A stretch of DNA of 60,548 bases from the NCBI GenBank assembly GCA_009692615.1, contig SHYW01000015.1, positions 1 to 60,548 on the forward strand, read 5' to 3'. A model generated the notes under the pieces. The model saw nothing but the letters and a program-made list of their open reading frames with translations, was not told where the DNA came from and ran no database searches. Positions 50,062 through 59,302 of this stretch are shown here, piece by piece. Position 1 is the stretch's first letter, and the number at the start of each line of letters is the position of its first letter. A program made the position numbers and the translations under genes. Origin of the DNA: Deltaproteobacteria bacterium. GTDB lineage: Bacteria > Desulfobacterota > Binatia > UBA9968.

Positions 50062-50697
50062 CTATTCGCCGCCTTGGCGGATCATTTCGAGTACTTGGTT
50101 GGTCGTTCGGACCCGCGCCAGGCGCGGAAAGACGGTGTCCATGAGCGCTTTCATGGAATCGTCGTGGGAGTTGCTGCACGCGTCGCGCGCGACGATGAGG
50201 TTGTAGTCGTGGTCGCGGGCGGAGTAGACGGTTGACGCGACGCCGACGTCGACGGCGCCGCCGGAGATGATGATCGTGTCGACGCCGCGCGAGCGCAGCG
50301 CGAGATCGAAGTAGGTTTGGTGAAACGTGCTCCAACGATATTTCGGAATTACATAATCTTCGGGCCGGGGCGCGATCTCATCGAGAACTTTTTGCTCGCG
50401 CGAACCTTCGGTGGCGCCGTGAACCGTTGGATTGCAGTCGTCGTTGGGCCAAGGGCGCAGCCGCATATCAGTGTCGGTGATCGCCATGTAACGGCTGTGG
50501 CCGTCGGGCCGATGATTGGCCATGGCGTAGAAAATCAGAATGCCATGCTGGCGCGCCGCGTTCATCAAGCGCACGGCGTTGTCGACCACCGGCTTCAAGG
50601 CTTTTTGTTTTTCTTCGGGGATGCCGTGGAAGTAGACGTTGAGCATGTCGAAGAACAGCAACGCGGTTTTTTTATTGTCGATTTGGTGGATGTTCAT
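50062..50697 (-). CDS. Isochorismatase-fold hydrolase lacking the nucleophilic Cys
   Basis: A 211-residue protein. Asp17 (LFFDMLN) and Lys119 (IPKYRWSTF) of the cysteine-hydrolase triad are kept, but the Cys position reads VDVGVAST with Gly152. True isochorismatase PhzD has Gly at this place too, as I recall, while amidases need Cys. So an amidohydrolase role is unlikely. Last gene of the seven-gene operon (24 bp after the VOC gene). An isochorismatase-like ether or ester cleavage is possible; the substrate is unknown. Confidence 0.8.
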   Translation of the reverse strand: MNIHQIDNKKTALLFFDMLNVYFHGIPEEKQKALKPVVDNAVRLMNAARQHGILIFYAMANHRPDGHSRYMAITDTDMRLRPWPNDDCNPTVHGATEGSREQKVLDEIAPRPEDYVIPKYRWSTFHQTYFDLALRSRGVDTIIISGGAVDVGVASTVYSARDHDYNLIVARDACSNSHDDSMKALMDTVFPRLARVRTTNQVLEMIRQGGE

Positions 50698-50721
50698 AAG
50701 AGTTCCTCCAGTGAAATTAGA

Positions 50722-51621
50722 TTAGCCTAAAATTCCGCTGTCGCGGGAATGACGATCGAGCGCGGCGATCTCCCACCAGTTGTGATCGAGATCGCTTAGC
50801 AAAAACGAGTCGCCTTCGGTTGTCGACTCAATTTCCTCGATCATTGTCAGTCCGAACTCCTTGCGCCGTTCGTTAAAATCCCGATGGGCATCGGCAAGCG
50901 CGGCCGGCGATTCGACGGCGACCGTGTAGCGTTGCAGCGGCGTCAAAAAATGTTTGTTCTTCGCCGGCACTTCCAAGCTCACAACATACCATGGCGTCGA
51001 CGGATGCTTCACGTCGTGGGGCTCGATGGTCGGCACGTGGGTGATGACATCGAGGCCTAACCCTTCTCGGTAGAATTTTTTCGAGGCTGCGAGATCGGTG
51101 CATTCCATGGTGCCATGAGTCATCGCTTGGGGCACGTAACCGCAGTCCGGCAATCGTTCTTCGGTGAGCACGGTTTTCCAGGGAAACGCGATCTCGTAGG
51201 GTAGGCCGGCTTTGTGGCGGTTTTCGTAGGATTCGATTTCCCAATAGTTGCCGCCGGGCTCGACGAAAAACATCGAGTAGGAACCGGCGCGCTCTTTGCG
51301 CTTAACCACTTTGGTCAATTTCAGTTCTTCCTTATGCGCTAGCAAATACTGATAAGCGTGGTCGACTTCTTGGTTATTTGCCACGCGCACGCCGTAATGG
51401 TTGCGCTCAGGTTTGTCTTTCACTTCCGCGCCGCCTTCGTGGACGATCAATTCCCAGCCGGTGTTGGGATGTTTCAGCACCGCTTCACGGTCGCGCCGTT
51501 CGAGCAAATCCAGTCCAAGGACTTTGGTAAGCACGGGAATCGTGTCGTCGAGGAAGCGCACTTCGGTGTGGCCGTGGACGAGGCCGTTGGGTTTTAGTAC
51601 GGCATTGGTTTCGGTGGTCAT
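50722..51621 (-). CDS. Two-domain VOC protein (extradiol dioxygenase/glyoxalase fold)
   Basis: A 299-residue protein of two VOC modules. The first has His18 (GHTEV), His75 (NHYGVRV) and Glu128 (YWEIE), a full metal site. In the second, His169 (THGTME) and the last Glu (NWWEIAA) remain but the middle His is replaced (QRYTVAV). Type I ring-cleaving dioxygenases keep their iron in the C-terminal module, so this one is unusual. GAACTCC-type sites flank; the ATG follows an AAGGAG on its strand. Likely a dioxygenase or isomerase of the operon. Confidence 0.75.
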   Translation of the reverse strand: MTTETNAVLKPNGLVHGHTEVRFLDDTIPVLTKVLGLDLLERRDREAVLKHPNTGWELIVHEGGAEVKDKPERNHYGVRVANNQEVDHAYQYLLAHKEELKLTKVVKRKERAGSYSMFFVEPGGNYWEIESYENRHKAGLPYEIAFPWKTVLTEERLPDCGYVPQAMTHGTMECTDLAASKKFYREGLGLDVITHVPTIEPHDVKHPSTPWYVVSLEVPAKNKHFLTPLQRYTVAVESPAALADAHRDFNERRKEFGLTMIEEIESTTEGDSFLLSDLDHNWWEIAALDRHSRDSGILG

Positions 51622-51636
51622 GAAAAAACTCCTTCG

Positions 51637-52638
51637 CTATTTCTTACCGATGGCCAAGCGCTCGACGGCTTTTTGTACGAAGGTCGGATCGAGATAAGGC
51701 CGTGCGTCGCGATTTTTTACGATGGCGGGCGTGAAGCGCGCGTGAAAGCCGTTGATCATGCTTTCGATGCCTTCCTGCCAGGGAAACGGCTGGCCTTGGA
51801 TCGCGTCGTACTGGGCCAAATTATTCTTGTGGGTTTTCTCGAGCAAGTTAGGATCGTTTTGCCGAGTGATTTTAACAATCGCGCGGTAGGCCGCCTCGCG
51901 GTTGGTGCGATACACTTGGATCGCTTCGACGATGGCGGTCATAAAATCGGTCAGCACGCGGGGATTTTTATCGCGAAAGTCGCGGGTCACGGTGTAGGGA
52001 ATCCCCGCGTAGCCCATGCGCAGGTCGAAAAAGTTTACCAGCTCGCGAAAGCCGAGTTTTTCCAATTCGATCTCGTTGGGCGGCGACACGGTCATGGCGT
52101 CGTACAGCCCTTGCTTCATCTGCGCCGCCCGCGCCAAGGTGCCGCCGGCGGTGTAAAAAACCGCGACATCTTTGTTGGGCACGAGATTGTACTTTTCCAA
52201 AAGATAGAGCGTGGCGTATTCGTCCAGGCCGGCGCGGCTGACGCCGATCCTTTTGCCTTTCAAGTCGGCTATCGTTTTGATCGACGGCGCGACCATCAAG
52301 CGCTGCGGTACGTAGCGGGTCTCGGTGCCGATGACAATGATCGGCGCATCGGCGGCCGCGATGGTGCGCGACACTGCTGTCCCTCCCCCGTAGAGCACTT
52401 GAATGTTGTTGCTCAAAAGCGCTGGCAGGTAAGTCGACGGTCCCTGCATCAAGATCAGCTCGACGTCGAGATTGTACTTGCGAAAAATATTTTCCAGCTT
52501 GGCCAGCCAGGCGATGGAGAAGTTGGTGGTGGTGGAGGCGTAAGCGACGTTGAGTTTGGTAAGCTGAGCGCGGGCTTGGACTGGGAACAGGACGAATAGG
52601 ACTGATAGGACGGATAGTTTAAGAGAGCAGCGATTCAT
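51637..52638 (-). CDS. ABC transporter substrate-binding protein, NMT1-like
   Basis: A 333-residue periplasmic protein. The signal peptide ends near residue 24 (LFPVQARAQL). TKLNVAYASTTTNFSIAWLA and EDNI-type helix FRKYNLDVELILMQGPSTY match the NMT1/TAXI group. It shares only family-level features with the protein at 9826. No permease or ATPase gene is adjacent. It lies between the FAH pair and the VOC gene, so it likely feeds their pathway. Confidence 0.85.
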   Translation of the reverse strand: MNRCSLKLSVLSVLFVLFPVQARAQLTKLNVAYASTTTNFSIAWLAKLENIFRKYNLDVELILMQGPSTYLPALLSNNIQVLYGGGTAVSRTIAAADAPIIVIGTETRYVPQRLMVAPSIKTIADLKGKRIGVSRAGLDEYATLYLLEKYNLVPNKDVAVFYTAGGTLARAAQMKQGLYDAMTVSPPNEIELEKLGFRELVNFFDLRMGYAGIPYTVTRDFRDKNPRVLTDFMTAIVEAIQVYRTNREAAYRAIVKITRQNDPNLLEKTHKNNLAQYDAIQGQPFPWQEGIESMINGFHARFTPAIVKNRDARPYLDPTFVQKAVERLAIGKK

Positions 52639-52654
52639 AGTCGTGTTATTGGGA

Positions 52655-53602
52655 TTATTCCGCGACGATGCGGTTTCTGAGTTGGCCGAGGCCTTCGACT
52701 TCGGCTTCGACTAGGTCGCCGGGTTTTAGCCACCAGGGCACCTGGTCCGGTTTTCTCCCGGCGGCGACGCCGCGCGGTGTTCCGGTGGTTAGCACGTCGC
52801 CGGGATTGAGTCCCAGTTGCGACCAGTAGGCGATCATGTCGCGGATTTTGAAAATCATGTAGCCCAAGTTCGAGTCCTGGCGGATTTCGCCGTTGACGCG
52901 AAGTGAGAGTTTTAGATTTTGCGGATCGGCGACTTCATCGGCGGTAACCAGATAGGGACCCATGGGCGCGAAGCCGGGAAAACTTTTGCCCATTAAGTGA
53001 ATGCCGTTTTTGTTCTCGCTGCGAATCACATCGCGGCCACTGATGTCGTTGAACGTCGAGTAGCCTGCGACATAATCGAACGCTTCATCCACGCTGACAT
53101 CGACGCAAGGCTTGCCGATCACGATGGCGAGCTCGACTTCGTAGTCGAGATGTTTTACTTCCGGCGGATGGGGAATGTCGTCTTCGGGACCGATCACGCT
53201 GCCCGGCAGTTTCAAGAACGCCACCGGCGCTACCGGGCCTTTTTTCGACGACATCTCGGAGACGTGGTCGGAAAAATTTTTGCCGGCGGAAATCAATGCG
53301 CCAGGGCGAGGCACCGGCGCCATCAAGCGCAGGCGCTGGCGTTCGATGACATTGTCACCGCTGCTGTCAGAGGCTGCGTGCTCGATCGCTGTTCGCGCGG
53401 CGTCCATTGCTTTGTCGCCATGTTTCAAGAACTCAACCATGTCGCTGCCCAGGGCGGCGCTGGCTACGCGCAGCGGGGCGGCAGCTTTCTCAACCTTGCT
53501 TAGATGGGACGCGTAGGCACTGAGCAGATCGACGACATTGCCGGAGCTGTCGATGGCGCCGATTCTCTCTTGCTCGTCATGGAAAAAAGTCACCAGCTTC
53601 AT
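52655..53602 (-). CDS. Fumarylacetoacetate hydrolase-family protein, active-site intact
   Basis: A 315-residue FAH-fold enzyme. The metal ligands are Glu155 and Glu157 (DYEVELAIVIGK) and Asp186 (NDISGRD). GKNFSDHVSEM and GTPRGVAAGR surround the site. Members hydrolyse or decarboxylate beta-keto acids such as fumarylpyruvate, acylpyruvates and 4-oxalocrotonate. ATG 53602 is set by an ATGA overlap with the upstream paralogue and by GGAGGAG just ahead. Read-through frames upstream are spurious. Confidence 0.9.
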   Translation of the reverse strand: MKLVTFFHDEQERIGAIDSSGNVVDLLSAYASHLSKVEKAAAPLRVASAALGSDMVEFLKHGDKAMDAARTAIEHAASDSSGDNVIERQRLRLMAPVPRPGALISAGKNFSDHVSEMSSKKGPVAPVAFLKLPGSVIGPEDDIPHPPEVKHLDYEVELAIVIGKPCVDVSVDEAFDYVAGYSTFNDISGRDVIRSENKNGIHLMGKSFPGFAPMGPYLVTADEVADPQNLKLSLRVNGEIRQDSNLGYMIFKIRDMIAYWSQLGLNPGDVLTTGTPRGVAAGRKPDQVPWWLKPGDLVEAEVEGLGQLRNRIVAE

Positions 53603-54582
53603 CGGCGTACTCCTCCGGCGGCGATAACTTGATGCGACAGCTCGCCGATGGCCGGCGACGAGCAGCGCATCGTCGAACCGATTTTGAGCGCCACGGGATT
53701 CTGCAACCGCTCGCCTTGGCGTGCCATGCTGGCGCCAATGGCGAACCAATCGCCCGGCTTGACGCCGAGGATCGACCAGCGGGCGACGATCTGCTCGACC
53801 GTGAAGACGCAATCGCGCAGGGCGAATTTCTGCTTGACGCTGCCGTCGAGGGAGAGTTCGACCTCCAGGGCCGAAAAAGTGTTCTTGTCGTTACCGATGA
53901 GAATGGCGGGGGCGACGCAGGTGCTCGACGGAAAGTTCTTGCCGAGCAAATTGTTGGTCGTGAGCCCTTCGCGCTTATTGATGTCGCGGGCGGTGATATC
54001 GACGATCAACATGGCGCCGGCGACATGTTCCCAGGCTTTTTCCGGGGGGATGCGCTTGCCGGCTTTGCCGATGACGATGGCGATGCAGCCATCGGCGTCA
54101 ATTTCATCGGAAAATTTCGGCCAGATGACCGGCGCACCGATGGTGATAAAAGTCTGCGGCAGTTTGTAATAGCCCGTGGGGATTTCCGCCGGCGGCAGGG
54201 CTTCGACGCGGGCGCGATCGGAAAAACCGATGACGAAACTTTTTTCCGGATTTTGCAGCGGCGGCAGGACACTTACGTCGATGCTATCGTAAGTGAGCTT
54301 TTCGCCGCCGGGGCCGCGCAACTGGTTTAGGCCGGATTTGCTGACGAAGGACAGGATTTGATCGAGTAACGTTAGCCCAGGTTCGCCCCATTCGAGAAAG
54401 CCGGCGATGGTGTTTGGGAAATAATAGCTCGCCAGTTCGTAAGCATTCGCCTGTTTACCATCGGCCTGCGTCAAATAGGCGGCGCAGGCGACTTGTAAGT
54501 CGACTAACTGGCCGTCCAGCTCGCCGAAGATTCGGCTTTGATGCGGCAGCGAACTTTCCAAAAGTCCGAGATAAAGTTTCAT
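53599..54582 (-). CDS. Fumarylacetoacetate hydrolase-family protein with a missing metal ligand
   Basis: A 327-residue paralogue of the next gene. Aligned on the shared AIVIGK, the Glu-x-Glu pair reads Asp164 and Cys166 (DADGCIAIVIGK); Asp195 (IVDITARD) is kept. The first change is conservative but the second removes a ligand. The N-terminal 110 residues differ from standard members. Its stop overlaps the active paralogue by ATGA, so equimolar production and a mixed complex are plausible. It may be a structural subunit. Confidence 0.75.
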   Translation of the reverse strand: MKLYLGLLESSLPHQSRIFGELDGQLVDLQVACAAYLTQADGKQANAYELASYYFPNTIAGFLEWGEPGLTLLDQILSFVSKSGLNQLRGPGGEKLTYDSIDVSVLPPLQNPEKSFVIGFSDRARVEALPPAEIPTGYYKLPQTFITIGAPVIWPKFSDEIDADGCIAIVIGKAGKRIPPEKAWEHVAGAMLIVDITARDINKREGLTTNNLLGKNFPSSTCVAPAILIGNDKNTFSALEVELSLDGSVKQKFALRDCVFTVEQIVARWSILGVKPGDWFAIGASMARQGERLQNPVALKIGSTMRCSSPAIGELSHQVIAAGGVRR

Positions 54583-54660: not shown

Positions 54661-56253
54661 TTAGGATTTCTTTTGTTTCAAATCCTGCAAAATTTCTTTG
54701 GCGGCATAATATCCCGGCAAACCAGTAATGCCGCCGCCGGGATGGCTGCCCGAGCCGCAGAGAAAAAGTTTGTCGATTGGCGTGTGGTAGCGCGCCCAGC
54801 CGGGCAGCGGGCGCATGAAAAAAATTTGATCCAACGCTAACTCGGCGTGATAGACGTGGCCTTCGGTCATTCCGTAAATCTGTTCGAGATCGAGGGGCGT
54901 TAAAACTTGGCGGTGCAGGATCGAGTTCTTGAAACCCGGTGCATACGCTTCGATCAAGTTTACAACCGTATCGCCAAGCGCGTCGCGCTGTTTGTTCCAG
55001 TTTCCTTCACGCAAATGATAGGGCGCCGATTGCATCCAGACCGACATGACATGCTTGCCGGCGGGCGCAAGCGATGGGTCGGCGAGCGATGGAATTGTGA
55101 TTTCCAAAAACGGCTGCTGGGAATATCTGCCGTATTTGGCGTCATCGGCGGCGCGCTCTAGATATTCGATTGCCGGGCCGATGTGAATGATGCCGCCGAG
55201 CTGTGCTGCTTGTGCCGTGGACGATTTGAAATTCGGCAAGGCGTCGAGCGCGAGATTTACTTTCGCCACGGTGCCGCGGGCGCGAATGTTTTTCACTTGC
55301 AGTAAAAAATGCGGATCGACGTAGGTCGGTTCGACCAGTTTTAGAAAAGTTTTTTTGACATCGGTGCTGGAAATTATCACATCGGCGGTAAATTCAGTTC
55401 CGTTCGCGAGCACGACGCCCGAGGCAGCGCCGTCTTTGGTCGTGACGGTTTTGACCTCGGTGTCGGTGCGAATCTCCGCGCCATTTTGCTGGGCCGCAAG
55501 AGACAGCGCGTGGGAGATGCGGCCGATGCCGCCGCGGACAAAACCGTCGCTGCGAAAGGCGCCGGTGGCGGCGCCGATTTGATGATGCAAGAAATTGTAA
55601 GCCGTGCCTTGTTGGCGCGGTCCGACGAAGGATGCGAGCATGGAACTCGCCGCGATGGCGGCTTTGAGCGCTTCGCTCTCGAACCATTCGTCGAGAAAGT
55701 CGGACATGCTCATGGGCAAGACGCGCAAAAACTCGTACATCTCCTTTTTGCCCAGGCGATGAAATTTCCACGCCGCTTTGATCAGTTCCATCGGGTTGAA
55801 TTCACCCGGCGTGGCGCGGTCGGGGAGGGGTAAGGAATAAAGCGTCAGAAGAAAGCCGGACAATTTTTTTGTCAGCGCGCAAAACTCGCCGTACTTTTCC
55901 GCATCGCACTGGGAATGGCGGCGGATTTCCTCGATGGCTTTCGCTGGATCGCGCGGAATGACGAGCGCGTTGCCGGTGAGACTCGGCGCAAACATTAACG
56001 GATCGAGGGGCAGAAACTCCAGGCCGTGCTTTTGCAGATTGAGACCTGCAACAATTGCCGGCGCAAACGAACCGGCGAGATGGGCGCAGGTAGCGTACTT
56101 GAACCCAGCAAAGATTTCTTCGCTGGCGGCGCTGCCGCCGATCACCGGACGGCGCTCCAAGACCAAGATTTTTTTCCCAGCCTTGGCCAGATAGGCCGCG
56201 GTCACCAGGCTGTTGTGGCCGGCGCCGATGATGATCGCGTCGTATTTTGCCAC
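54661..56253 (-). CDS. FAD-dependent oxidoreductase, PYROXD2/phytoene-desaturase-like (B)
   Basis: A 530-residue flavoprotein. FAD motif IIIGAGHNSLVTAAYLAKAG has Ser where the third Gly of GxGxxG is usual, while the upstream paralogue keeps it. VLERRPVIGGSAASEE follows, and CGSGSHPGGGITGLPG near the C-terminus contacts FAD. Start is GTG 56253, 5 bp after the upstream stop, with AAAGGAG upstream; the frame extension to 56493 overlaps the neighbouring gene and is rejected. Likely oxidises a C-C or C-N bond. Not a carotenoid enzyme on present context. Confidence 0.85.
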   Translation of the reverse strand: MAKYDAIIIGAGHNSLVTAAYLAKAGKKILVLERRPVIGGSAASEEIFAGFKYATCAHLAGSFAPAIVAGLNLQKHGLEFLPLDPLMFAPSLTGNALVIPRDPAKAIEEIRRHSQCDAEKYGEFCALTKKLSGFLLTLYSLPLPDRATPGEFNPMELIKAAWKFHRLGKKEMYEFLRVLPMSMSDFLDEWFESEALKAAIAASSMLASFVGPRQQGTAYNFLHHQIGAATGAFRSDGFVRGGIGRISHALSLAAQQNGAEIRTDTEVKTVTTKDGAASGVVLANGTEFTADVIISSTDVKKTFLKLVEPTYVDPHFLLQVKNIRARGTVAKVNLALDALPNFKSSTAQAAQLGGIIHIGPAIEYLERAADDAKYGRYSQQPFLEITIPSLADPSLAPAGKHVMSVWMQSAPYHLREGNWNKQRDALGDTVVNLIEAYAPGFKNSILHRQVLTPLDLEQIYGMTEGHVYHAELALDQIFFMRPLPGWARYHTPIDKLFLCGSGSHPGGGITGLPGYYAAKEILQDLKQKKS

Positions 56254-56258
56254 GGTGG

Positions 56259-57851
56259 TTAGCGAAAACTCCTTTGGCTGTCTTTGAGAATTTCCAGCGC
56301 TGCCAATCTTCCCGACGCCGCCATGACGCCGCCGCCCGGATGGGTGCAGGCGCCGCACATGTAGAGATTTTTTATCGGCGTGCGATATTTCGCCCAGCCG
56401 GCTACTGGACGCAAGAAAAATAATTGGTCGAGGGTGAGCTCGCCCTGAAAAATATTTCCTTCGGTCAAGCCGAATTCTTGCTCCAGATCCCACGGCGTGA
56501 CCACTTGGCGGTGCAAAATAATATCTTTCATATTCGGCGCGTATTCGCTCAAGGTATCGATGACGGCGTCGCCCAGCGCGTCGCGTTTTTCCGGCCAGGT
56601 GCCAGATTTTAAATGATACGGCGCGTACTGCACGAAGATCGACATCACATGTTTTCCCGGCGGCGCCATGGATGGATCGAGCATCGACGGCAAAATGATG
56701 TCCATGTAGGGCCGGCGCGAAAAATCGCCGTACTTGGCATCGTCGTAGGCGCGCTCGATGTAGTCCAGGCTCGGGCTGATGGAAATCGCGCCGGCGAGAT
56801 GCGGGCCGTTGCCGGGCATGGCGGTGAAATTGGGCAGCGCGTCGAGGGATAAATTAACTTTTGCCGACGAGCCGCGGATTTTGAAATTTTGCACCTGCTT
56901 GGTAAATCCCGCATCGAGGTGCTGGCTGTCGATCATTTTCAAAAACGTCCGCTTGGGATCGACGCTGGAGACGATGACTTTGGCTTGGATTTCCTCGCCC
57001 GATTGCAGAACAACGCCGTGGGCTTTGCCCTTCTTGATCAACACTTGATCGACCGCGGCTTCGGTTCTGATCTCCGCGCCGTGGTGGCGCGCCGCCTCGG
57101 CGATCACTCGGCTGATCGATCCGGTGCCGCCGCGGGCGAAACCCCACGAGCGAAACGCGCCGTCGAGCTCGCCCATGTAGTGATGCAGCAGCACGTACGC
57201 CGTGCCGGGCGAGCGCGGTCCCATGAAGGTGCCGATGATGCCGCTCGCCGACATGGTCGCTTTGAGTACGTCGGTGTCGAACCATTCGTCGAGAAAGTCC
57301 GCCGAGCTCATGGTCATGAGTTTGGTGAGATCGTACAACAGTTTTTCACCCAGGCCGCGAAAATGGTTGCCCACCGTGGCCAGGCCGAAAAGATCTTTTG
57401 GCTTCCAGGTCGTCGGTTCCGGCGGAATCATGCCGAGCAGGGGCTTTACCGCCATCGCCATCTGCACCATCAGCTGGCCGTATTGTTCGTAGGCCTCGGC
57501 ATCGGTGGTCGAGTGGCGCGCGATCTCGCGCCGGGTGCGGGCGTGGTCGCCGCAGCGGAAAAGATAATCCCCGTCGGGCATCGGCGTGAAGGTGCTGTCC
57601 AAGGGAATGATTTCGAGATCGTATTTCGGCAGTTCGAGATCGCGGATGACTTCGGGGCGGAGCAAGCTCACGACATAGGAACAGACCGAATATTTAAATC
57701 CGGGATAGAGTTCTTCGGTCACCGCCGCGCCGCCGAGCAGGTGGCGCCGTTCGAGGACGAGGACTTTCTTGCCGGCTTTGGCCAAATAGGCGGCGCTGGT
57801 CAGACCGTTGTGGCCGCCGCCGATGATGATCGCGTCAAATTGGTTTCGCAT
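56259..57851 (-). CDS. FAD-dependent oxidoreductase, PYROXD2/phytoene-desaturase-like (A)
   Basis: A 530-residue flavoprotein, equal in length to gene B. FAD motif IIIGGGHNGLTSAAYLAKAG (9-28), VLERRHLLGGAAVTEE, and CGACTHPGGGVMAASGRLAA near the end. EWFDTDVLKATMSASGIIGT and PRSPGTAYVLLHHYMGE are also conserved in B. First gene of the operon. Human PYROXD2 is the nearest named relative. The start of the gene is 257 bp from the divergent GcvT-like gene. Confidence 0.85.
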   Translation of the reverse strand: MRNQFDAIIIGGGHNGLTSAAYLAKAGKKVLVLERRHLLGGAAVTEELYPGFKYSVCSYVVSLLRPEVIRDLELPKYDLEIIPLDSTFTPMPDGDYLFRCGDHARTRREIARHSTTDAEAYEQYGQLMVQMAMAVKPLLGMIPPEPTTWKPKDLFGLATVGNHFRGLGEKLLYDLTKLMTMSSADFLDEWFDTDVLKATMSASGIIGTFMGPRSPGTAYVLLHHYMGELDGAFRSWGFARGGTGSISRVIAEAARHHGAEIRTEAAVDQVLIKKGKAHGVVLQSGEEIQAKVIVSSVDPKRTFLKMIDSQHLDAGFTKQVQNFKIRGSSAKVNLSLDALPNFTAMPGNGPHLAGAISISPSLDYIERAYDDAKYGDFSRRPYMDIILPSMLDPSMAPPGKHVMSIFVQYAPYHLKSGTWPEKRDALGDAVIDTLSEYAPNMKDIILHRQVVTPWDLEQEFGLTEGNIFQGELTLDQLFFLRPVAGWAKYRTPIKNLYMCGACTHPGGGVMAASGRLAALEILKDSQRSFR

Positions 57852-57988
57852 CTCGATGATTTGCTTAAAGCCGCATATTTGGTAATTTCGACCGGGAAGT
57901 CAACGAGACAGTGCGGCTGAGCCGCAATCAATGGGAAGAAGAGATTAACCGCAAAAAGCGCAAAGGGCGTAGAAAAGAATCCGAATTT

Positions 57989-58015
57989 GTAGGGGCGACC
58001 GGCTGGTCGCCCTTC
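57989..58015. repeat. GTAGGGGCG-type hairpin
   Basis: GTAGGGGCGACCGGCTGGTC then GCCCTTC; core GACCGGCTGGTC. It is preceded by GAATCCGAATTT, as at 23771. A separate AATCCAAAATCGAAAATCC repeat lies at 58079-58102, just before the GcvT-like start. Confidence 0.75.
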
Positions 58016-58108
58016 TTTGCCGCACGGAAAGTTTTCAATGTACTGATGCAGTGTGGAGCCGGCGAGACCGTTTCCGTCAATCCAAAATCGAAAATCCAAA
58101 ATAACAAG

Positions 58109-59302
58109 ATGCCCATCGGAACGCCATTTCACTCGCGAACTTCGGCCCTTTGCGCCAGTCACAACTGGCGGACATGGTCGGGATACTTTGTCGCCGGCTG
58201 CTACGACGTGATGCACGACTACGAGTATCATGCGATCCGCAACAGCGCCGGGCTGATCGATGTCTCGCCGCTCTATAAATACGACGTGCGCGGCAAGGAC
58301 GCGCTCAAATTGGTCAATCGGGTGATCACCCGGGACGCGGCCAAGTGCGCCGTCGGTCAGGCGCTTTACGCGTGTCTGTGCGAAGACGATGGCGCGGTGA
58401 TTCAAGATGGCACGGTGTTTCGTTTGGCTGAGGATCATTTTCGTTTTCACTTGGCCGACCCGAGTTTACGTTGGCTAAAGCTCAATGCCGTCGGTCTCGA
58501 CTTGTCGATCCAGGAAGTTTCCGAGCGCATCGCCGCCCTGGCGCTGCAAGGGCCCAATGCGCGAAAAATCCTTGCCCAAGTATTCGATGCGGAGTTGAGC
58601 CAGCTAAAATTCTTTCGCTTCACGGCGGGGAAAATTCTGGACGTGCCGCTAATCGTTTCGCGCACCGGCTACACCGGCGATCTCGGCTACGAACTATGGT
58701 TTGACGCGCAACACGCCGAACGGATTTGGGACGCTTTGATGGCCGCGGGTGAATCGTTCGGTATCAAGGCGACCGGGATTTTGGCGCTCGATGTGTCGCG
58801 GCTTGAGGCCGGGTTCATTCTCTTGGAAGTCGACTACATCGGCGCTGAGAAGGCGCTGATCGCGACGCAACGCTATTCGCCATTTGAAATCGCTCTCGGT
58901 TGGACCGTCGATCTGCAAAAGGATCATTTCGTCGGCGCTAAGGCGCTGCGCCAAGCGCAGCAAGCCGGTCCGGCGCGCCAGATTGTCGGACTGGAAATCG
59001 TTCTCGACGACTACGAGTATCTTTACAAACAGGCCGGCTTGGCGCCGCAATATCCGCTGGCGGCGTGGCGCGGCGGCGTGCCGGTGTACAAAGACGATCG
59101 CCAAGTCGGCCATGCCACCACCGGCGCCTGGTCGCCGACCTTAAAAAAATATCTCGCGCTGGCGACTATTGAAAAAGGTTTAGCTGAGCCGGGTACCAAG
59201 CTCGATTTGGAAGTGACCGTTGAATACGCGCGCAAGCAAACCGGCGTGACGGTGGTTAAGACGCCGTTTTTCGACCCAGCGCGCAAGCGCGCCATCGCAT
59301 AA
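58109..59302 (+). CDS. Aminomethyltransferase (GcvT)-family protein
   Basis: A 397-residue folate-binding-fold protein. VSRTGYTGDLGYELWF is the GcvT Arg-x-Gly-Tyr-Thr-Gly signature, and AIRNSAGLIDVSPLYKYDV the N-terminal one. The I-D-D catalytic motif reads IQDGTVFRL, with the first Asp as Gln. It has an unusual insert (GLEIVLDDYEYLYKQAGLAP) ahead of the C-terminal barrel. No glycine-cleavage genes (gcvP, gcvH) are present, so it is not a bona fide T protein; demethylases of this fold use tetrahydrofolate. ATG 58109 is the start in frame with the first conserved block. Confidence 0.8.
   Translation: MPIGTPFHSRTSALCASHNWRTWSGYFVAGCYDVMHDYEYHAIRNSAGLIDVSPLYKYDVRGKDALKLVNRVITRDAAKCAVGQALYACLCEDDGAVIQDGTVFRLAEDHFRFHLADPSLRWLKLNAVGLDLSIQEVSERIAALALQGPNARKILAQVFDAELSQLKFFRFTAGKILDVPLIVSRTGYTGDLGYELWFDAQHAERIWDALMAAGESFGIKATGILALDVSRLEAGFILLEVDYIGAEKALIATQRYSPFEIALGWTVDLQKDHFVGAKALRQAQQAGPARQIVGLEIVLDDYEYLYKQAGLAPQYPLAAWRGGVPVYKDDRQVGHATTGAWSPTLKKYLALATIEKGLAEPGTKLDLEVTVEYARKQTGVTVVKTPFFDPARKRAIA

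Follow-up and report, generated by a model that had tools for sequence, protein, structure and literature searches.

Our analysis of the window, a 60,548-nucleotide stretch of contig SHYW01000015.1 from a Deltaproteobacteria bacterium of the class Binatia (assembly GCA_009692615.1), reveals a conserved trio of genes: two paralogous flavin adenine dinucleotide (FAD) oxidoreductases, flavoB and flavoA, and a protein with a GcvT fold and a folate site (the GcvT-like protein). The trio is a real, widespread conserved unit, found in environmental bacteria of five named phyla, in the window's own lineage, and in one archaeal record. With moderate confidence, and from sequence comparison, we interpret the trio as a folate-linked oxidative demethylation cassette, probably for N-methyl compounds, with an N-methylated amino acid or similar amine as the most likely substrate. 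Read in this way, the cassette would carry out flavin/folate oxidative demethylation in a new and widespread arrangement, one that is split into separate genes and that uses a flavoprotein family other than that of dimethylglycine dehydrogenase. What the data support directly are the gene unit itself, its distribution among phyla, the main folate-site signature, the FAD-binding motifs of both flavoproteins, and the neighbours of the cassette. To our knowledge, CrtI-like flavoproteins and a free-standing GcvT-fold protein are not known to work together, and the cassette seems to be undescribed; we found no account of it or of its function in the open-licence papers searched, which is weak evidence of absence.

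At the window locus, flavoB is followed by flavoA on the minus strand with a gap of 5 bases, and the GcvT-like gene is positioned head to head with flavoB, in divergent orientation (Table 1). An initial annotation, made from the sequence alone, had described two FAD proteins of equal length, 530 residues each and 5 bp apart, facing a GcvT-fold gene; the open reading frames (ORFs) confirm the lengths and the spacing, and the GcvT-like gene is indeed on the opposite strand, but the genes point away from, not toward, each other. The promoters of flavoB and of the GcvT-like gene presumably lie in the intergenic region between them. Both flavoproteins match Pfam Amino_oxidase PF01593 (55.6 and 55.2 bits, cut-off 19.8), and the GcvT-like protein matches GCV_T PF01571 (206.8 bits) and GCV_T_C PF08669 (62.8 bits), both above cut-off. 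By Pfam, the GcvT-like protein consists of GcvT domains only, with no DUF1989-type N-terminal part. The same annotation had stated that gcv partners are lacking, which is right for gcvP: no gcvP is located beside the GcvT-like gene (no search was made for gcvH), and the window genome has its true gcvT, along with two gcvP genes, on a different contig, so the GcvT-like protein needs a separate role.

Of the 25 genomes of the window's family, 18 carry the GcvT-like orthologue (E up to 1e-75); at the same threshold, none of the class genomes outside the family does (148 class genomes searched). The gene is head to head with flavoB every time, at the window locus and at the 17 others alike. The gene flavoA directly follows flavoB in 10 of these 18 genomes; in G012, flavoB is split across two contig ends, with a flavoA ~4 kb further downstream on the second of these contigs; in G007, G009, and G021, the contig stops <1.2 kb past flavoB; and in G011, G013, G019, and G022, flavoA is absent from the locus with contig room available. 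The genes for hisF and a thioredoxin reductase are also kept as locus neighbours within the family, and the family data alone are therefore insufficient to establish linkage. The explanation that the adjacency reflects shared synteny only is rejected on the cross-phylum loci, which carry the linkage argument.

To extend the comparison across phyla, one genome per species was scanned, yielding at least 586 stretches, at least 565 of which encode a relative of the GcvT-like profile (E up to 1e-3) and may include ordinary GcvT; the best 80 loci were kept, and these are the closest loci, not a random sample. Seven of the 80 are from the window's family (contigs of family genomes already counted), and 73 are from outside it: 55 from Acidobacteriota, 10 from Gemmatimonadota, 3 from Chloroflexota, 3 from Betaproteobacteria, 1 from Myxococcota, and 1 from an archaeal record, with phyla taken from the record titles of metagenome bins. 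The 73 outside loci match at 51–57% identity. A flavoprotein is encoded within 6 kb of the GcvT-like gene at 71 of the 80 loci (two or more at 61 loci, one at 10, and none at 9). Nine of the 10 single-flavoprotein loci are cut off by the end of the contig on the side of the flavoprotein, leaving L104 as a real single, and a genome-wide search for the 9 loci lacking a nearby flavoprotein found flavoB/flavoA-type genes elsewhere in 6 genomes. Conservation of the trio's neighbourhood, the absence of which the initial annotation had named as refuting its proposal, is thus seen both in the family (18 of 18 loci with flavoB) and across phyla (71 of 80 loci with a flavoprotein).

The trio occurs in two layouts: a divergent layout in Acidobacteriota, Myxococcota, and the window's family, and a co-directional layout, in the order GcvT-like gene, flavoB, flavoA, in Chloroflexota, Gemmatimonadota, and Betaproteobacteria. 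With start codons assigned automatically, a 4-base overlap joins the GcvT-like and flavoB ORFs in L150, and gaps of 2 bases (L176) and 10 bases (L111) separate them at two other loci. Three small ORFs are located between the two flavoproteins in L146; automatic ORF maps, which were used for some loci, contain spurious antisense ORFs. Among the best 80 loci, there is no flavoprotein–GcvT fusion, and the GcvT-like ORFs are no longer than 496 amino acids (aa). The linkage survives the rearrangement of layout and is therefore good evidence for shared function. In the archaeal locus, L178, the flavoB/flavoA pair is divergent, and the locus was scored as co-directional in the layout count owing to a third flavoprotein. 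This third flavoprotein (L178:9253-9981) is of the same family, is located on the opposite side of the GcvT-like gene, and is truncated by the contig end.

The GcvT-like proteins form a clade separate from glycine-cleavage GcvT (support 99/99). The sister of this clade is the GcvT domain of trimethylamine N-oxide (TMAO) demethylase, Tdm; support for this is weak (86/68), and a long-branch warning applies. Among solved structures, the Tdm domain also ranks first for the window protein in a single-protein search (179 bits, vs 169 bits for Bacillus subtilis GcvT); a profile search gives a near tie (220.2 vs 219.9 bits). Scores are below cut-off for the GcvT models TIGR00528 (188.8 of 235.85 bits) and NF001567 (240.2 of 300 bits) and for the TMAO demethylase model (299.2 of 1100 bits). 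Several genomes of the window's family encode another GcvT-domain family (L087–L093), about 30–31% identical and in a separate clade.

In an alignment of 94 GcvT-like sequences (over 330 residues, >45% identity to the window protein, with shorter and more distant pieces left out and duplicates present), residues Y87, D100, Y188, and E195 are invariant (94 of 94 rows). These residues match Thermotoga maritima GcvT Y83, D96, Y188, and E195, and we take Y83, D96, and Y188 to have roles in the folate site. The position of the glycine-cleavage Arg (Arg227; Escherichia coli R223) is Leu in 93 of the 94 rows and Met in 1. In a study of Tdm, E195 and R223 of E. coli GcvT are given as folate-site positions (PMC12560246). 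Leu at the Arg position is common to TMAO demethylase and to one protein from the window's class that resembles dimethylglycine dehydrogenase (DMGDH; L181), in which Y87, D100, Y188, E195, and L227 agree and Asn replaces D228. The possibility that the GcvT-like gene encodes the glycine-cleavage T-protein of the genome is ruled out by the sub-cut-off scores, the Leu for Arg substitution, the separate clade, and the location of the true gcvT and gcvP genes elsewhere.

The cassette has partial counterparts among known systems. In dimethylglycine dehydrogenase/oxidase and in sarcosine oxidase alpha, as in the cassette, a flavoprotein is coupled to a GcvT-fold folate part, and the DMGDH-like protein resembles the GcvT-like protein in its folate-site Asp, Tyr, and Glu and in its Leu at the Arg position; human DMGDH transfers its methyl group to tetrahydrofolate (THF), according to PMC5082570. 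In dimethylglycine dehydrogenase/oxidase, however, a DAO-type domain is fused to the GcvT fold, whereas the cassette has separate genes, flavoproteins of the CrtI/amine-oxidase family, and two paralogues. In Tdm, the GcvT-like domain is fused to a metal-binding DUF1989 part (PMC12560246), whereas the GcvT fold of the cassette stands alone beside flavoproteins. Glycine-cleavage GcvT has the same fold and most of the same folate-site residues, but has Arg, where the cassette protein has Leu, and falls in its own clade; the cassette protein has no gcvP alongside.

The flavoproteins of the cassette are related to carotenoid enzymes and to amine oxidases. In both, Pfam Amino_oxidase covers most of the length, and the best stretch for Pfam DAO comprises only residues 5–42 and 6–42. 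The best NCBIfam match is CrtO, at 338.8 and 340.8 bits, far under the cut-off of 1000, and scores for crtI_fam are 122.4 and 126.2 bits against a cut-off of 238.1. Predicted structures (pLDDT 84.5 for flavoA and 71.7, a moderate confidence only, for flavoB) give gamma-carotene desaturase and CrtI as first structural matches for both proteins. The flavoA model is nearest to carotenoid desaturases and two unassigned archaeal oxidoreductases, followed by amine oxidases such as NicA2; lower matches include monoamine oxidases, putrescine oxidase, and Rab-GDI. The fold serves C–C and C–N oxidation alike, and does not decide between them. The flavoproteins could be carotenoid or terpenoid desaturases or ketolases of CrtI/CrtO type, with the GcvT-like protein an independent housekeeping protein, for example one with YgfZ-like folate sensing. 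We consider this explanation very improbable: CrtO is the top NCBIfam match, and carotenoid desaturases, which have the same FAD-binding fold, are the closest solved structures, but both flavoproteins are far under the CrtO cut-off, no carotenoid gene is present among the neighbours run through family models (most neighbour clusters being unannotated), and the association of the GcvT-like gene with the flavoproteins holds across phyla in both layouts. In the window genome (contig C80, L082:3285-6623) and in another family of the order (L084:9077-12438), there is a different tandem pair of distant PYROXD2/CrtI-like flavoproteins, which adjoins an apparent short-chain dehydrogenase (by eye).

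A tree of 79 flavoproteins places flavoB in one clade (35 rows, support 100/99) and flavoA in another (34 rows), with weak support for monophyly of the latter (92/53). The flavoB and flavoA halves of the tree show matching groups: the window's family; Chloroflexota, Gemmatimonadota, and Betaproteobacteria; and Acidobacteriota and Myxococcota. Because both halves split into matching groups, the flavoB/flavoA duplication looks older than the sampled lineages, and the cassette seems to have moved as one unit. Outside the family, flavoB is 65–69% identical to the window copy, and flavoA, which evolves faster, is 41–50% identical. In an alignment of 150 flavoproteins (81 flavoB and 69 flavoA rows, aligned over 430 residues, with shorter or distant pieces left out, duplicates present, and the divergent family flavoproteins L075 and L081 counted as flavoA), residues S58, Y59, S62, Y225, E228, D230, W236, and others are at least 97% fixed in flavoB and are found in <20% of flavoA. 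Since flavoB is more constrained and has fixed polar positions, we infer that flavoB would hold the conserved substrate site.

The Gly positions of the FAD motif GxGxxG are present in 80 of 81 flavoB rows (1 gapped), and the last Gly is retained in 64 of 69 flavoA rows. The initial annotation had noted Ser in the motif of one of the two flavoproteins, which is true of the window flavoA, and had taken it as a sign that the two may form a heteromer. This argument fails because the Ser is not conserved in flavoA: it is present in only 2 of 69 flavoA rows, and flavoA is absent from the four family loci, noted above, that keep flavoB and the GcvT-like gene. Independently of the Ser, flavoA and flavoB could be obligate subunits of a single heteromeric dehydrogenase whose folate subunit is the GcvT-like protein, the same chemistry being carried out by a split analogue of dimethylglycine dehydrogenase. 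The presence of two flavoproteins near the gene at 61 of 80 loci, the old duplication with matching tree groups, and the asymmetric conservation of S58, Y59, Y225, E228, D230, and W236 would fit such an assembly. The missing flavoA makes an obligate heteromer unlikely in the four family genomes, one of which (G019, 98% complete) yields a single flavoprotein match genome-wide, and we regard this arrangement as improbable overall. The split demethylation layout proposed in the initial annotation is thus retained with regard to the conserved trio, the demethylase-type folate residues, and the neighbours at other loci, and loses its heteromer argument.

The genes that adjoin flavoA in the window are listed in Table 1 together with the trio.

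Table 1. Features of the window at and beside the cassette.
Feature	Coordinates	Strand	Remarks
GcvT-like protein	58109-59302	plus	ATG start at 58109; 397 aa; GcvT-fold, folate-site protein
Intergenic region, flavoB/GcvT-like gene	57852-58108		257 bp; divergent
flavoB	56259-57851	minus	ATG start; 530 aa; FAD oxidoreductase, CrtI/CrtO/amine-oxidase superfamily; flavin partner kept with the GcvT-like gene
flavoA	54661-56253	minus	GTG start; 530 aa; second FAD paralogue, downstream of flavoB
Fumarylacetoacetate-hydrolase-family (FAH) protein	53599-54582	minus	likely same operon; at the locus in genus genomes only
Second FAH-family protein	52655-53602	minus	315 aa from 53602
NMT1/SsuA-like substrate-binding protein	51637-52638	minus	
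VOC (glyoxalase/extradiol dioxygenase fold) protein	50722-51621	minus	
Isochorismatase-family hydrolase	50062-50697	minus	also adjoins flavoA in G015

The segment from 50062 to 54582 probably forms a catabolic operon for aromatics or heterocycles, part of which is retained in the genus. These genes raise the possibility of O-demethylation, in which a GcvT-like protein of LigM/DesA type would move an aromatic O-methyl group to THF without redox chemistry, the flavoproteins would oxidise the ring or side chain, and the FAH, VOC, and isochorismatase genes would complete an aromatic pathway. Aromatic-type catabolic genes are indeed located downstream in the window and in the genus, and LigM and DesA have the same fold as the GcvT-like protein. 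Model scores, however, are far under cut-off (83 of 580 bits for LigM and 93.4 of 800 bits for DesA), and the aromatic-type genes are restricted at the locus to the genus, apart from one isochorismatase in G015, and are present among the best 80 loci only in L101 and L103, both from the window's family; we judge O-demethylation unlikely. A second VOC protein, similar by eye to that of the window, is encoded near glycine-cleavage genes on contig C63 of the window genome (L183:10114-10944).

Neighbours at other loci point in a different direction. Neighbours were counted by tblastn with single representatives (at least 28% identity), with family models used to check some only. A Rieske oxygenase is encoded near the cassette at 14 of 80 loci (12 in Acidobacteriota, 1 in Gemmatimonadota, and 1 in Chloroflexota), in varied positions and orientations; an APC-family (amino-acid) permease at 35 loci, all in Acidobacteriota; PurU at 17 loci, all in Acidobacteriota, on the flavoA side and in the same orientation; and an MttB-family gene at 1 locus (L150, Chloroflexota). 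The one PurU that was modelled exceeds both of its cut-offs (421 vs 223 bits and 399 vs 286 bits). In the glycine betaine route, the Rieske monooxygenase GbcA acts first, followed by flavin/folate demethylases, and by analogy the order of steps may be alike for the cassettes with nearby Rieske oxygenases. For the five Rieske proteins modelled, GbcA is the best model, but scores are well under its cut-off (121–230 bits vs 670); they are not shown to be GbcA, and none is present at the window locus. The MttB family includes glycine betaine demethylases (PMC12478193). The Rieske, PurU, permease, and MttB neighbours together suggest an N-methyl substrate and a THF-bound one-carbon product, methylene-THF. 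In three Pyrinomonadaceae loci (L123, L156, and L172), a threonine-aldolase-like pyridoxal phosphate enzyme adjoins flavoA, and a Rieske oxygenase is located on the other side of the cassette, a hint of a beta-hydroxy amino-acid intermediate.

Several observations weigh against folate-linked N-demethylation. The FAH, VOC, and isochorismatase genes of the window point to breakdown of aromatics or heterocycles, not of amino acids. The Rieske, PurU, and permease genes are missing both from the window locus and from the majority of non-acidobacterial loci, and the acidobacterial cases of PurU, methyltransferase, and permease, being related, represent few independent events. Co-occurrence of Rieske proteins with the trio in the family was considered and rejected, PF00848 being matched in 9 of the 18 genomes that carry the GcvT-like gene and in 3 of the 7 that lack it; PurU above cut-off is present in 4 of 18 and 0 of 7, respectively. 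The trio is also not always intact: 3 of the 9 genomes searched genome-wide keep the GcvT-like gene without any flavoprotein match, and G002 encodes both flavoproteins but no GcvT-like gene, on a contig that extends 12 kb past flavoB. The other six family genomes without a GcvT-like match have no flavoB match at 70% identity or more. The PYROXD2-like label that the initial annotation gave to the flavoproteins is presumptive, and their orthology to human PYROXD2 putative. In the folate site, GcvT of T. maritima and of B. subtilis has Tyr at position 104, whereas 91 of the 94 GcvT-like rows have Ser, Thr, Phe, or Ala there. In Tdm, Leu at the Arg position and Phe in place of Tyr104 weaken THF contacts, and THF use is probably vestigial, according to PMC12560246. 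Since like changes in Tdm are read as weakened THF binding, the residue signature is not proof of THF use.

For the cassette as an oxidative demethylation system, we infer every reaction step, as well as the N-methyl substrate class and any physical complex. In the proposed mechanism, flavoB would oxidise the N-methyl group of the substrate to the imine level, with reduction of its FAD; the GcvT-like protein would present THF at a site around Asp100, capture the one-carbon unit, and release 5,10-methylene-THF; and flavoA would serve as a second dehydrogenase, acting on another methyl group or on an intermediate, or as a helper or electron-transfer partner.

On the presumption that the flavoproteins are PYROXD2-like, human genetics offers a candidate for the substrate class. 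According to PMC8109053, a PYROXD2 variant accounts for about half of the variance in N6-methyllysine, and PYROXD2 variants are associated with dimethyllysine and N-methylpipecolate; according to PMC3169529, PYROXD2 variants are associated with urinary trimethylamine and plasma dimethylamine. A more specific, and doubtful, version of the demethylation proposal is that the cassette catabolises free N-methylated amino acids, such as N6-methyllysines and N-methylpipecolate, with a PYROXD2-type flavoprotein as the N-methyl dehydrogenase and transfer of the one-carbon unit to THF on the GcvT-fold partner. If this is true, the human orphan PYROXD2 would be the same kind of enzyme; the cassette may thus hint at the function of PYROXD2, and gives it one concrete candidate reaction. 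If the cassette is a folate-linked demethylation system, it would add a flavin family to the folate-linked one-carbon metabolism of bacteria that are mostly uncultured.

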